From positions 1 through 35,421 of the forward strand of contig CALXSV010000117.1 of the NCBI GenBank assembly GCA_944391235.1: DNA of 35,421 nucleotides. Reading direction: 5' to 3'. The notes beneath the pieces are model-generated. The model was given only the letters and a program-made list of their open reading frames with translations. It was not told where the DNA came from and ran no database searches. Below are positions 2,930 through 33,072 of the stretch, piece by piece. Numbering within the stretch: position 1 is the stretch's first letter; each line of letters begins with the position of its first letter. Made by a program: the position numbers and the translations under genes. Origin of the DNA: an uncultured Clostridia bacterium (GTDB lineage: Bacteria > Bacillota > Dehalobacteriia > UBA4068).

Positions 2930-3058
2930 ACCGCCATTGCCAAGTTGGCACTGGACGCTAATATGGCGGAGGGCCTTGCAATCCATTATTCGGGCGGCTC
3001 CGGTATGCTGGATGATGTAGCAGCATGGCTGGACGCCAATGGAATCGAGAGACAATAA
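2930..3058 (+). pseudogene. flavodoxin 3' end left by a deletion
   Basis: In the frame ending at TAA 3056-3058 the residues TAIAKLALDANMAEGLAIHY, SGGSGMLDDVAAWLDANGIE match the last 40 or so residues of a clostridial flavodoxin. There is no start or ribosome site, and upstream sequence in this frame is a shadow of the SUMF1-like remnant. The junction near 2929/2930 is therefore most simply a deletion that removed the 3' end of the SUMF1-like gene and the 5' part of a flavodoxin gene. No terminator separates it from the flavin reductase that follows. Confidence 0.7.
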
Positions 3059-18448: not shown

Positions 18449-18537
18449 AAGTCGTAGATAAATCCAAGAAGGGGCAGGAAAAATCATCTTTTCCGCGAAA
18501 TTAATTTAATTTGAAAGCTGTCATAAGGAGATCTTTT

Positions 18538-18909
18538 ATGAACAGAAAGTGGTCACAAAGTCTGGCCAATAAGCCAACATTATTATATGATAAAAGTTTG
18601 CGTTCCGGTCAGAATATCCATTTTGACGGCAATGTGGTGGTGCTTGGCGACGTTAATCCCGGCGCTGAAATTGTAGCCGGTGGGCATATTTTAGTGATGG
18701 GAGCCCTGCGCGGACTGGTACATGCTGGTGCTGCTGGGGACGAATCCGCTACTGTTACTGCTTTATGCTTTGAGCCCACCCAAGTCAGGATCGCCAGTCA
18801 TATCACCCGGCCTCCGGATGATAATGCCAACGGTGGCATAAAACCGCCGGAAGTCGCCCGTATTCGGGATGATAATGTGGTGATTGAAGAATATCAGCCG
18901 CCTAGATAA
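18538..18909 (+). CDS. minC: MinC, C-terminal domain only
   Basis: The product has only 123 residues; MinC is usually about 210-230. It has the complete C-terminal beta-helix (SLRSGQNIHFDGNVVVLGDV, NPGAEIVAGGHILVMGALRG, FEPTQVRIASHITRPPD), which dimerises and binds MinD. The N-terminal domain, which inhibits FtsZ polymerisation, is missing: only about 18 unrelated residues (MNRKWSQSLANKPTLLYD) precede the beta-helix. AAGGAG lies 7 bases before ATG 18538, and no coding trace of the missing part is seen in the 113 bases after maf. The protein may be an adapter for MinD or a partial division inhibitor; a separate N-domain gene could lie elsewhere. Confidence 0.9.
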   Translation: MNRKWSQSLANKPTLLYDKSLRSGQNIHFDGNVVVLGDVNPGAEIVAGGHILVMGALRGLVHAGAAGDESATVTALCFEPTQVRIASHITRPPDDNANGGIKPPEVARIRDDNVVIEEYQPPR

Positions 18910-18974: not shown

Positions 18975-19769
18975 ATGGGTAAAGTTATCGTTATTACATC
19001 CGGTAAGGGTGGCGTCGGCAAAACAACCACTACGGCCAACGTGGGAACTGCTCTAGCTATGCTGGGCAAAAAGGTTGTTATGGTAGATACGGATATCGGC
19101 CTGCGCAATCTGGATGTGGTTTTAGGGTTGGAAAACCGGATTGTTTATGATTTGGTGGATGCTGTACGCGGAAACTGCCGCTTAAAACAGGCGCTAATTA
19201 AGGATAAAAGAATCGAAAACCTGTTCTTGCTGCCGGCAGCGCAGACCAAGGATAAGACTGCCGTGTCTACCGACCAGATGGCAGAATTGTGCGAGAAATT
19301 AAAAGAAGAGTTTGATTTTGTGCTTATCGATTGCCCGGCTGGTATTGAGCATGGGTTTAAAAATGCCATTGCCGGTGCGGAGGAGGCGGTTGTAGTAACA
19401 ACCCCTGAGGTTTCTGCCGTACGTGATGCGGACCGCATCATTGGCCTGCTGGAAGCTGCGGGAATTACCGCGCCAGTTCTGGTGGTAAACCGTATTCGTA
19501 CCAATATGGTTAAAAGCGGCGATATGATGAGCGTAGAGGATATTTTGGATATCCTGGCCGTTGATTTGCTGGGTATTGTTCCAGATGACGATGCGATTGT
19601 TATCTCTACAAACCGCGGTGAACCCACAGTCTTTGATGACAACTCCCGTCCTGGCCTTGCCTTCCGCAATATTGCACGTCGTTTGGATGGGGAAAATGTG
19701 CCATTGATCAGCTTGGAAGAGAAGCAGGGCTTTTGGGGTCGGCTGAAACATATGTTCAAGTCAGAATAG
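18975..19769 (+). CDS. minD: septum site-determining ATPase MinD
   Basis: The product has 264 residues, full length. The deviant Walker A is GKGGVGKTTTT (10-20), the switch I-like stretch is DTDIGLRNLDVVLGLENRIV, and Walker B is FDFVLIDCPAGIE. The C-terminus GFWGRLKHMFKSE is the amphipathic membrane-targeting helix. MinD binds the membrane with ATP, recruits MinC and is released by MinE. A GGAGG ribosome site precedes ATG 18975. It lies 65 bases after minC and 10 bases before minE, so the three form an operon. Confidence 0.98.
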   Translation: MGKVIVITSGKGGVGKTTTTANVGTALAMLGKKVVMVDTDIGLRNLDVVLGLENRIVYDLVDAVRGNCRLKQALIKDKRIENLFLLPAAQTKDKTAVSTDQMAELCEKLKEEFDFVLIDCPAGIEHGFKNAIAGAEEAVVVTTPEVSAVRDADRIIGLLEAAGITAPVLVVNRIRTNMVKSGDMMSVEDILDILAVDLLGIVPDDDAIVISTNRGEPTVFDDNSRPGLAFRNIARRLDGENVPLISLEEKQGFWGRLKHMFKSE

Positions 19770-19779
19770 GAGGGCTCAG

Positions 19780-20058
19780 ATGGGTTTAGCCAACATTATG
19801 TCACGTTTCTTTGGCAGGGAAGAGGAAGTCAATACGTCCAAGAACGAGGCTAAGAAGCGTCTGCGCCTGGTTTTGGTGCATGACCGCTTGGACATTTCTG
19901 AATCCATGATGGAAAATTTGCGGGAAGACCTGATTGCTACCATTGGTAAATATATGGAAATTGATCAGGATGCCCTAGATGTTACCTTGTCCCGCGAGGA
20001 TGAAGGGGTTGCTCTGGTTGCCAATATTCCGGTGTTGAACGTCAAACGTCAAGCCTGA
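19780..20058 (+). CDS. minE: cell division topological specificity factor MinE
   Basis: The product has 92 residues, typical length. The N-terminal membrane-targeting segment is MGLANIMSRFFGRE. The MinD-activating and dimer-forming part includes AKKRLRLVLVHDRLDISESM, LREDLIATIGKYMEID and VALVANIPVLNV. MinE stimulates MinD ATPase and drives oscillation, so this cell probably has a moving Min system. GGAGGG lies just before ATG 19780. Confidence 0.97.
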   Translation: MGLANIMSRFFGREEEVNTSKNEAKKRLRLVLVHDRLDISESMMENLREDLIATIGKYMEIDQDALDVTLSREDEGVALVANIPVLNVKRQA

Positions 20059-20073
20059 TGCAGGATGCTTTCT

Positions 20074-20101
20074 ATCCGGGTGACCAAATGGTCACCCGGA
20101 T
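20074..20101 (+). terminator. terminator after minCDE
   Basis: ATCCGGGTGACC pairs perfectly with GGTCACCCGGAT around a 4-base AAAT loop, followed by TTTGTTCGTTT. The 12-bp stem is strong, the T-run is broken, and it lies between minE and the first amidohydrolase. Confidence 0.85.
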
Positions 20102-20137
20102 TTGTTCGTTTGCAATCCGCAATTCACGAGGTTTTCA

Positions 20138-20935
20138 ATGATTATTGATATACATACCCACTGCTATCCGCAGCGTATTGCCCAGCATGTGCTGCGCGCT
20201 TCCGGTCGGAACAACAGTTTTCCCCCGGTGTGCGATGCTACTTTAGCTGGCACGCGCGCCTTGATGCAGGCCTGCGGTGTAGATAAATTTGCCTTGTTGC
20301 CGGTTGGGACTATGCCTTCCTGTCATAGCTCCAATCAGTTTTCCTGCGACCATGCCGATGAAATGATCATCCCCTTTGGCACTGTACACCCTGCTGCGGA
20401 GGATTTGGAGGGTGAGGTCGAACGACTGGCGCTTATGGGTTTGAAGGGCGTTAAATTACATCCACAGTATCAGCAAACCCTGATTTCTGATACGCGCTAT
20501 ATCCGTATTATCCGCCGGGCTGCTACATTGGGCCTGGTTGTTATCTTTCACGCTGGCATCGACCCGGAGCTGTCGCCTCCATGGTTGTCGTTGCCCTCTG
20601 ACATTGCCCGGTTATTGGATGTCGTAGAGGATACGGATGGTTTGGTGTTGATTGCTGCGCATCTAGGCGGCTTTGGTATGTTTGATGATGTGGAAAAGTA
20701 TTTGGTTGGCCGCAATCTTTACTTTGATACAGCTTGTATTGCGAAAAGCATTTCTGCTGCGCAGTATCGCCGTATCATTGAGCGGCATGGATATACGCGT
20801 ATTCTGTTTGGCAGTGATTGTCCCTGGCAGCGGCCGGATGTTAATATACAAGCCATCCGGCGTCTGGGTTTGCCCCAGGAACAGCTGGAGATGATTCTGG
20901 GCGGCAATGCGCAGCGTATTTTACATATACAATAA
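20138..20935 (+). CDS. amidohydrolase family protein (PF04909-like), copy 1
   Basis: The product has 265 residues with the TIM-barrel metal-dependent hydrolase pattern: the N-terminal HxH is DIHTHCYP (His5, His7), later GLKGVKLHPQYQQ, VIFHAGIDP, IAAHLGG and the C-terminal metal ligand in ILFGSDCPW. Relatives decarboxylate or hydrolyse aromatic and heterocyclic acids; the substrate is not predictable. ATG 20138 has GAGG 6 bases upstream; a longer TTG reading was rejected. The next gene encodes a clear paralogue 28 bases downstream. Copy 1 has AHLGG and copy 2 has PHMGA, so their active sites differ. Confidence 0.88.
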   Translation: MIIDIHTHCYPQRIAQHVLRASGRNNSFPPVCDATLAGTRALMQACGVDKFALLPVGTMPSCHSSNQFSCDHADEMIIPFGTVHPAAEDLEGEVERLALMGLKGVKLHPQYQQTLISDTRYIRIIRRAATLGLVVIFHAGIDPELSPPWLSLPSDIARLLDVVEDTDGLVLIAAHLGGFGMFDDVEKYLVGRNLYFDTACIAKSISAAQYRRIIERHGYTRILFGSDCPWQRPDVNIQAIRRLGLPQEQLEMILGGNAQRILHIQ

Positions 20936-20963: not shown

Positions 20964-21776
20964 ATGATTATAGATTTTCATACTCATATGTACCCAGATA
21001 ATGTTGCTAAGATTATTATGTCCCGTCTACCCAGACCCAGTGGCATTGTGCCTTCTACAGATGCCACATATGCCGGTACCAAGGCCAAGCTGCTGGAATG
21101 GGGCGTAGATAAGCATGTCATGCTGCCAGTTGGTACGCATCCGGATTGCAGTGCTCCCAATGCCTTTGCCGCCAGCATTGCGGATGACTATACCCTGTGC
21201 TTTGGTACGGTACATCCGCGCGCCAAGGATGTCGAAGCAGAGGTGGAGAAGGTCGCGGAGATGGGCTTGCGTGGGGTAAAGCTGCATCCTCAGTACCAGG
21301 GTGTGATCATCAATGACGCAGCCTATGTGCGCATAGTAAAACGCTGCGCGAAGTTGAAACTGCCAGTGCTTTTCCATACCGGCGCTGATCCGGGACGCCC
21401 TTATGCTCTGCTGGCTGAGCCGGAGGATATTGTCAAGCTGCTGAATATCGTTGAAGATTTGGATGGTCTGACCATGATTCTGCCGCATATGGGCGCGTTG
21501 ATGCAGTATGATGAAGTAGAGCGCCTATTGGTTGGCCGTAATGTTTATTTTGACACTTCTTTTTCCTGTGAGCATATTGACCCTGTGCAGTTTCGGCGTA
21601 TGATAGATAACCATGGCTACCAGCGTATTTTATATGGCAGTGATTGTCCCTGGATTAATGGTAAACTGTGTATTGAGGCTGTACGCGCCCTACACCTGCC
21701 AGCTGAGCAGGAGGAGGCTATCTTCTGGCGCAATGCGGCTCGTCTTCTTAAGCTTGATATCACAAGCCCAGATTAA
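20964..21776 (+). CDS. amidohydrolase family protein (PF04909-like), copy 2
   Basis: The product has 270 residues and is a tandem paralogue of the gene before it: DFHTHMYP, GLRGVKLHPQYQG, VLFHTGADPG, ILPHMGAL and ILYGSDCPW line up throughout without large gaps, and GGCAGTGATTGTCCCTGG is identical at the DNA level in both genes. It should have the same fold and probably a related reaction. The ribosome site before ATG 20964 is weak (AAGGTAG). The two genes are probably co-transcribed and end at a hairpin near 21.8 kb. Their location between min and smc is not a usual arrangement. Confidence 0.88.
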   Translation: MIIDFHTHMYPDNVAKIIMSRLPRPSGIVPSTDATYAGTKAKLLEWGVDKHVMLPVGTHPDCSAPNAFAASIADDYTLCFGTVHPRAKDVEAEVEKVAEMGLRGVKLHPQYQGVIINDAAYVRIVKRCAKLKLPVLFHTGADPGRPYALLAEPEDIVKLLNIVEDLDGLTMILPHMGALMQYDEVERLLVGRNVYFDTSFSCEHIDPVQFRRMIDNHGYQRILYGSDCPWINGKLCIEAVRALHLPAEQEEAIFWRNAARLLKLDITSPD

Positions 21777-29644: not shown

Positions 29645-30613
29645 TTAGCGTATAAAATCATTGTAATTTTCTACTGTGCAATCCGGATGCGCATAGATGG
29701 CACAGGCAGCAGCAATGATTTCCGACTGGTTTTCAATTAATTCGTCGATATCGCGCGGCGTAACCATAAGTTGGCCGCGGAATACGGACAAAAGCTGCTT
29801 TTCCGCATATTCACGCGCTATATCATCGAGATCTGGCGGTAAAACCATGGCGCGCTGACGCCAGTTATCTGCCAGAGCGCTAATGGTTTCGTTAATGATG
29901 GCTGCGCTATCTACAACTGTTGGTACGCCAAGAGCAATCATGTGGCAGCCCAGTGTGTCGTCATTGATAGGGCGTATTTGTCCGCCAACTCCACTGCCCG
30001 GACTGATACCGCTGTCATTAAGCTGTATGGTGGTTCCAACACGGCGAATGGAAGCCGCGGCGAGAGAATCAATAACAATGACCGCGGTTGGCTGGATTTC
30101 CCTACACACACTGCGCAGCAAATCCAGGGTGGCAATGCCGGAGCTACCTTGCACTCCGGGCGCAATCAGGCAGACTTTGCCCAGTCCGGATGGATGCTCG
30201 CGCGCGGAAAACAGCTGGCGGGTTGCATAGCTTAATGAGATGACGCGCGGACCCAATGAATCTGCTACCGCGCAGTTGTTACCCAGTCCCGCCAGCAACA
30301 GCGTACCATCCTGTAAAGGAGGCAGCAGACGCGATATTTCTTGCGCTAATAGTTTTACTGTGTCCGTAAACGCAGTGCTGTTGTCTAAAATGGGTGTATC
30401 TATGGTAATATAACGACCGCAGGGTTTGTTGATGGCGCGGCTTCCTTGTTCGTTTAATACAGTAATCGTATGCACGGTGGCGTTGTTTTCCTGTCTTACT
30501 TCTTCATTAATCCCCGCTATTTCCACATTGGCGGCTCCGCGGAGCAAGGCCGTGGCTTCGCAGGCCAAATCCAGGCGGCTGGCTAAGCCCGGCAAATTAT
30601 AAAAGTTTTGCAT
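29645..30613 (-). CDS. gpr: spore germination protease GPR
   Basis: The product has 322 residues and belongs to peptidase family A25. The N-terminus LASRLDLACEATALL corresponds to the propeptide-cleavage region (compare RTDLALEA in relatives). The core has GRYITIDTPIL, LLLAGLGNNCAVADSLGPRV, CLIAPGVQGSSGIATLDLL, VIVIDSLAAASIRRVGTTIQ and GISPGSGVGGQ. GPR is made as a zymogen in the forespore, activates itself and cleaves SASPs during germination. AAGGAGT stands 7 bases before the ATG at 30613. The SASP gene follows on the same strand, so substrate and protease are neighbours. Confidence 0.96.
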   Translation of the reverse strand: MQNFYNLPGLASRLDLACEATALLRGAANVEIAGINEEVRQENNATVHTITVLNEQGSRAINKPCGRYITIDTPILDNSTAFTDTVKLLAQEISRLLPPLQDGTLLLAGLGNNCAVADSLGPRVISLSYATRQLFSAREHPSGLGKVCLIAPGVQGSSGIATLDLLRSVCREIQPTAVIVIDSLAAASIRRVGTTIQLNDSGISPGSGVGGQIRPINDDTLGCHMIALGVPTVVDSAAIINETISALADNWRQRAMVLPPDLDDIAREYAEKQLLSVFRGQLMVTPRDIDELIENQSEIIAAACAIYAHPDCTVENYNDFIR

Positions 30614-31931: not shown

Positions 31932-31968
31932 AAAAATAACGTTAAAACCCAGTTTTGGCGTTATTTTT
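31932..31968. terminator. bidirectional terminator between convergent genes
   Basis: AAAAATAACG pairs with CGTTATTTTT, and AAAAC pairs with GTTTT inside it, giving a two-part hairpin with A-runs and T-runs at the ends. The TAA of ylbJ (complement of 31942-31944) lies inside the loop side of the stem. Confidence 0.85.
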
Positions 31969-33072
31969 TTTTGCCCTTCTGTTATAGCTGGCTTTGCGCC
32001 TGGAAGTAATCCTAGCCATGCCCAGCCATAGCAAAACAATGGTCATAGCAGTTATGAGACTGTATGTAAGCGGGGAAATAGAATGGACAGCCTCAATCGG
32101 CAGCGTACTGGTTTGCTGTACAATGTGGGGAAGCAGCAAGGCTGTGTATATACAGGCTGCAGCTGCATGCAATGGTCGGCAAATCAAATAGAGCCGTGGG
32201 CTGATGTCTGTGTCCGATACCATTGCCAGCACCTGCATTTGCACGGAAAAACCGCCAAAAGCCAGTATCGCTGCGGCAAGTGGCAGCGCCAGCGCCAGGG
32301 GTAAGCCACTGGTAGACAATGTGTCTATCCCTAGTGACATTTCCCATACACCGCTTAACATGGCGCGCAGCATTGGGGTGATGCTGCTGGGAAGAATGAG
32401 GCAGATCAACTCGGCTAAAACGGAGAAAAAGGCCATGTAGCAGCCAATAATCAAAATGTTGTTAGTGGCGGCACGGGCTGCCTCTTTCATCAAGTTGCCC
32501 AGACTGCCGGGCGGTGTCGCTGTGCTGGGTAGGGCTGTCGCAGCGGATGTTTTGCTGCTGCGGCTAAACAGGCCCAGAATAATACCCAGCAGTAAGTCCA
32601 GCCCATAGTGTCCGCTGGCCAGCAGCATTGCTGCTGCTGGTTGTCCAAATAAGCCAGCGGCTACGGCTACTGTTATGTACAGAGGGCCGGCATTGTTGGT
32701 AAAGGCAAGCAGACGCGCGGCCTCCTCTCGGCTAATCAGACCTTGCCGGCGTAAATCCGCTGTGACTGCGGCGCCGGTGGGAAAGCCTGAACAAAAGCCA
32801 AGAACTATAGCAAGCGAGGCTGCGCCAGGCAGGTTGAATAACGGCCGCATAAACGGAGCAAAGCAGTGTCCAGCCGCCTGGGCTGCGCCTATGGAAATCA
32901 GCAGATTACTAATAATAAAAAAGGGCAGTAAAGAGGGGACAATGACTTCCCACCATAGATGTAGGCCGTTCATTGCCGCAGCAACGCTCTGCTGCGGCAG
33001 TAGCAGCATGCTTATGGCCATCACTGCCAATGTCATGCCGAGGAAGATGCTTAAGTATTTTTTTCGTTTCAT
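31942..33072 (-). CDS. ylbJ: sporulation integral membrane protein YlbJ
   Basis: The product has 376 residues with about eight to nine membrane helices and two gate-like repeats of the nucleoside-recognition type (EVIVPSLLPFFIISNLLISI, LGFCSGFPTGAAVTADLRRQ, FTNNAGPLYITVAVAAGLFG). The second half includes LSGVWEMSLGIDTLSTSG. In Bacillus YlbJ is made in the mother cell and is needed for normal spores. The C-terminus is very basic (RRKASYNRRAKKNNAK). GGAG lies 9 bases before the ATG at 33072. It diverges from ackA and converges with the coiled-coil gene. Confidence 0.93.
   Translation of the reverse strand: MKRKKYLSIFLGMTLAVMAISMLLLPQQSVAAAMNGLHLWWEVIVPSLLPFFIISNLLISIGAAQAAGHCFAPFMRPLFNLPGAASLAIVLGFCSGFPTGAAVTADLRRQGLISREEAARLLAFTNNAGPLYITVAVAAGLFGQPAAAMLLASGHYGLDLLLGIILGLFSRSSKTSAATALPSTATPPGSLGNLMKEAARAATNNILIIGCYMAFFSVLAELICLILPSSITPMLRAMLSGVWEMSLGIDTLSTSGLPLALALPLAAAILAFGGFSVQMQVLAMVSDTDISPRLYLICRPLHAAAACIYTALLLPHIVQQTSTLPIEAVHSISPLTYSLITAMTIVLLWLGMARITSRRKASYNRRAKKNNAKTGF

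Follow-up and report, generated by a model that had tools for sequence, protein, structure and literature searches.

The window analysed here is a stretch of 35,421 nucleotides in which a minC gene encoding the C-terminal domain of MinC alone lies directly upstream of intact minD and minE genes. The features at this locus are the following.

18525 to 18531, plus strand: Shine-Dalgarno-like AAGGAGA 5' of minC, read from the sequence
18538 to 18909, plus strand: short minC, 123 aa, C-terminal beta-helix domain alone (PF03775, 117 bits)
18538 to 18585, plus strand: 16-codon N-terminal tail ahead of the MinC_C match, without an N-domain
18601 to 18612, plus strand: RSGQ motif, residues 22–25 of short MinC, invariant in a 24-sequence alignment
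18975 to 19769, plus strand: minD, 264 aa (TIGR01968, 412.7 bits, cut-off 212.9)
19780 to 20058, plus strand: minE, 92 aa (TIGR01215, 71.4 bits, cut-off 49.3)
20074 to 20101, plus strand: terminator-like 12-bp stem-loop 3' of minE, from a consensus scan only

The short minC gene extends from an ATG at 18538, about 7 nt downstream of the end of AAGGAG, to a stop codon at 18907–18909. Its product matches the MinC_C family PF03775 with 117.1 bits (cut-off 33.2, E 4e-34), residues 17–117 covering profile positions 2–102 of 102, and this is the sole family above cut-off; neither of the two MinC_N models (PF05209 and PF22642) matches it. The NCBIfam minC equivalog TIGR01222 is matched with 100.4 bits (cut-off 95.25), over model positions 118–225 of 226 only. 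These matches, together with the MinD and MinE scores above cut-off, bear out the sequence-only reading of the locus as a C-domain-only MinC with a start and a ribosome site, ahead of intact minD and minE. The frame is free of stop codons for 32 codons ahead of RSGQ and no further; therefore it has no room for a MinC N-domain, and a hidden upstream frame encoding one is ruled out. Close relatives are equally short at this locus. Most minD-adjacent copies of the class have an in-frame start 19–24 codons before RSGQ, and the starts equivalent to that of the window are in most relatives also preceded by Shine-Dalgarno-like sites. The short gene is not a truncation artefact, since its start, its ribosome site and its position ahead of minD are repeated all through the class. 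Chance is excluded because the same gene precedes minD across the class and because, relative to the nearest relative, dN is 0.12 for a dS of 1.9, a dS value near saturation. With 225 contigs and 79% completeness, the assembly would allow for a short minC that arose by decay or by misassembly, but this explanation is extremely improbable, given that the same form with a conserved start region is present in separate assemblies throughout the class and that dN lies far below dS. The identical form in separate genomes rules out an assembly error in particular.

Two terminator-like sites were found, compared with 2.0 expected in shuffled sequences. Between minE and smc, the adjacent frames at 20102–20935 and 20964–21776 (277 and 270 aa) are similar and amidohydrolase-like, and look like a tandem duplication. 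The window frames 29645–30613 and 31942–33072 are presumably the spore protease Gpr and YlbJ, and we take frames at 3031–4492 of L087, near the full-length MinC described below, to be SigG and SpoIIR; these readings would fit an endospore-forming lineage. Contig C157 of G000 (L181, 1–1500) carries on its plus strand an ORF (2–763) of 246–253 aa that weakly matches the FtsZ profile in its C-terminal part (34 bits, positions 203–341) and no recognisable GTPase part; its start is uncertain because the frame runs off the contig end.

The genome of the window also encodes a second MinC. When the genome was searched with PF05209, a MinC N-domain was found on contig C111 (19897–20103, minus strand; 35.6 bits, above cut-off), and a second MinC_C match shares its frame. 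The encoded protein, about 222 residues long, is a full MinC. Its gene adjoins mutS and is divergent from a ttcA-like gene, which we read as ttcA. Because of this full-length MinC the genome is not devoid of a MinC N-domain, and the proposal of the sequence-only reading that MinD, the MinC C-domain and MinE alone place the septum is not upheld for this genome. Its other proposal, of an N-domain encoded as a protein of its own, came close, the difference being that this protein is an entire second MinC. This pairing is widespread in the class: both a short and a full-length MinC were found in 22 of the 43 genomes searched, with frames of 120–171 aa (stop to stop) and 217–266 aa respectively. 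Every minC of the class found beside minD is short; the full-length copies that we inspected lie away from minD, mostly next to MutS, TtcA or DUF523 homologues. No MinC_C match was found in two genomes of family f1, to which the window's genome belongs, G013 (99% complete) and G014; FtsZ is present in G013. No paper describing a short MinC or such a pair was found in the literature searched.

An AlphaFold2 model of the short MinC (24 sequences, from the window and related) is beta-rich with a mean pLDDT of 86 and low confidence over residues 1–10. Nine PDB entries match it at E below 0.001; each is a MinC, and 4v02 is the best (TM 0.80). RSGQ is the MinD-binding motif of known MinC proteins (PMC5548801). 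It is retained in nearly all short copies, a group that in our table also contains about seven full-length operon copies misplaced by the motif filter, and is more variable in the orphan copies, 24 of 38 of which keep it. The sequence-only reading had further suggested that the residues ahead of the beta-helix might form a new interaction motif. As a general motif this suggestion was rejected, since these residues are not conserved outside family f1; the first ten of them are also modelled with low confidence. A W...PT pattern (W, then L/I/M, and a PT pair) is common to most family f1 tails only and is absent from the tails of families f2, f4 and f6. Elsewhere the tails differ again, with charged stretches of about 130 residues in the operon MinCs of family f18, and a shared LMQL(T/S)PP...PPEIYP pattern in those of L186, L187 and L190 (genomes G145, G111 and G176). 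The tail patterns may reflect family-specific contacts and are not one conserved motif.

In the working model MinC is two-pronged, with a C-domain that targets and an N-domain that acts on FtsZ. The C-domain dimerises, binds MinD through RSGQ and binds the FtsZ tail peptide (PMC5548801, PMC6771821, PMC3618327), its dimer and MinD faces being known from MinCD structures (PMC6771821), while the N-domain acts on the FtsZ polymer interface (PMC11938149). Because the two domains have these separate activities and RSGQ is kept in the short copies, we favour here, with slightly better than even confidence, a split system in which the short minC is the operon-borne member of an old pair of minC paralogues and the N-domain is supplied in trans by the full-length MinC. 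The short MinC would form the usual beta-helix dimer, MinD-ATP would hold it at the membrane via RSGQ, and MinE would remove it, so that it would follow the MinDE pattern. The full-length MinC would bring in the FtsZ-capping N-domain in one of two ways: as a further member of the same MinD array, or as the partner of a short MinC in a dimer formed through the C-domain face that both share. The short MinC would then set the density of N-domains on MinD, and the dose of inhibitor could be adjusted independently of the minDE genes. Also in favour of this system are the full-length MinC on C111, the recurrence of the pair within and beyond the class, and the separate clade of the orphans.

The pairing extends beyond the class. 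In a phylum sample of 219 genomes, many have more than one MinC_C match among the matches listed. In all 21 genomes outside the class from which both copies were retrieved (18 first, including G044, G046, G053 and G055, then G145, G111 and G176), the minD-adjacent copy has no recognisable MinC_N and the other copy has one, a count that gives no estimate of frequency because these genomes were picked partly for having one short listed frame. In Desulfotomaculum copahuensis, a named isolate, the operon gene starts 35–37 codons before RSGQ and a full-length orphan lies on another contig. A single full-length MinC beside minD was found in six genomes (G043, G045, G047, G048, G054 and G058). G057 is an exception: it has two MinCs, and its operon copy has a weak N-domain match (18.5 bits), so a strict rule by which every genome with a second MinC has lost the N-domain from its operon copy was rejected. 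Seven other genomes (G072, G075, G158, G204, G219, G228 and G247) may be further exceptions: PF03775 matches each of them more than once, and their operon copy carries an N-domain. G053, G134 and G163 were rejected as carriers of two full-length MinCs, since their operon copies have a charged tail and not MinC_N.

In a first tree a supported clade (96/89) unites 22 of the full-length orphans and separates them from the operon copies. A wider quick tree, run after removal of distant and long-branch rows, including the class orphan L072, places 35 of 36 orphans on one side of a branch (SH-aLRT 97), and the one orphan outside it has a very long branch. Because the orphans form their own clade, short and full-length MinC are two old paralogues; the trees rest on about 107 columns with many unresolved forks, so the claim is limited to two old paralogous groups and carries no number of N-domain losses. 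We infer that a duplication came first, that the operon copy then lost its N-domain, and that the orphan disappeared last, in the groups that have the short copy only.

These last groups comprise 14 genomes of the class, 90–99% complete, whose single MinC_C match is the short one (G020, G021, G023, G024, G026, G028–G032, G036, G038, G040 and G042; groups f2/g14, f3, f5 and f7). In all 14, minD and minE follow the short gene, and none has a PF05209 match at E 0.01. As PF05209 is weak on Gram-positive MinC (PMC3618327), the search was repeated with PF22642 and with a profile of 22 N-domains. With the latter, genomes known to have a full-length MinC score 1e-10 to 1e-29, and none of the 14 matches at E 1; G022 and G034, two among the strongest of the scoring genomes, were themselves sources for the profile. 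Every PF22642 match in the 14 genomes is below cut-off; the best, in G042 (5.5e-5), was rejected as MinC_N, the 523-aa protein being read as flagellar FliF beside FliG. An N-domain missed through weakness of the PF05209 model is therefore rejected, as neither repeat search gave an accepted MinC_N. In draft assemblies a gene may still have been missed, though the 14 genomes agree. The reading of a MinC that is C-domain only may thus, from gene content, apply to these sister lineages. We give an even chance to the proposition that f2/g14, f3, f5 and f7 still place the division site with such a MinC, MinD and MinE and with no MinC N-domain in the genome. If this is true, the FtsZ-capping domain would be dispensable in a natural MinCDE system, and the two-MinC state of the window would be the state before its loss.

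In these relatives the C-domain would have to act alone, which leads to a second explanation, possible but rather unlikely, in which the short MinC with MinD alone is a Z-ring inhibitor that binds the FtsZ C-terminal peptide and displaces anchors using the same peptide, the orphan being used at other times, for example in sporulation or at some growth stage. It would account for the short-only genomes keeping minC, minD and minE with no detectable N-domain, and a recognisable FtsZ C-terminal peptide is conserved in all six of those examined (G020, G021, G023, G026, G036 and G038). In line with it, E. coli MinC_C is reported to bind the FtsZ C-terminal peptide and to antagonise Z rings in vivo (PMC3618327, PMC11938149), but this inhibition was reported for overexpression, and in vitro MinC_C by itself fails to shorten FtsZ filaments (PMC11938149). 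It is also weakened at the residue level: the alignment has L60 of the short MinC at the position of E. coli R172. That arginine is implicated in septal interaction. In a third explanation the short MinC has ceased to act on FtsZ and adjusts the cycling of MinD and MinE; it might, for instance, link MinD dimers or contend with MinE for MinD. This explanation agrees with the constant association of the gene with minD and minE and with reports that MinC modulates the oscillation rate and that MinC and MinE compete for one site on MinD (PMC6771821). It would leave the short-only lineages with a MinDE system devoid of any FtsZ effector, and we consider it improbable. The split system that we favour has evidence against it too: most orphans keep RSGQ and therefore may bind MinD unaided, not every lineage needs a full-length partner, as the short-only genomes show, and the operon copy of G057 has its weak N-domain match despite a second MinC. 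A minD-linked gene with the targeting half alone, together with relatives that seem to retain this half only, would make the contributions of the two domains testable without engineered truncations, and warns that automatic annotation can call such genes MinC from the C-terminal half alone.

Compared with known systems, the short MinC resembles the two-domain MinC of E. coli, Thermotoga maritima and Clostridioides difficile by its C-domain fold, its RSGQ motif and its place before minD and minE, and differs from them in lacking the FtsZ-capping N-domain and in having a full-length paralogue encoded elsewhere. FapA/DUF342 (PF03961) has a short beta-solenoid similarity to it over 32 residues, with 29.1 bits, below the cut-off of 31, and the context here is minDE. 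The MinCD copolymers of Aquifex aeolicus and Pseudomonas aeruginosa (PDB 4v02 and 6riq) include the best structural match of our model, 4v02, and in the P. aeruginosa filament the ordered part of MinC is the C-domain. Both copolymers are formed by two-domain MinC, unlike the short MinC, and the C-terminal helix of A. aeolicus MinC has no counterpart in the model. Engineered E. coli MinC_C constructs consist of the same domain without the N-domain and work with MinD; they are laboratory truncations, whereas the short minC occurs naturally and is conserved.
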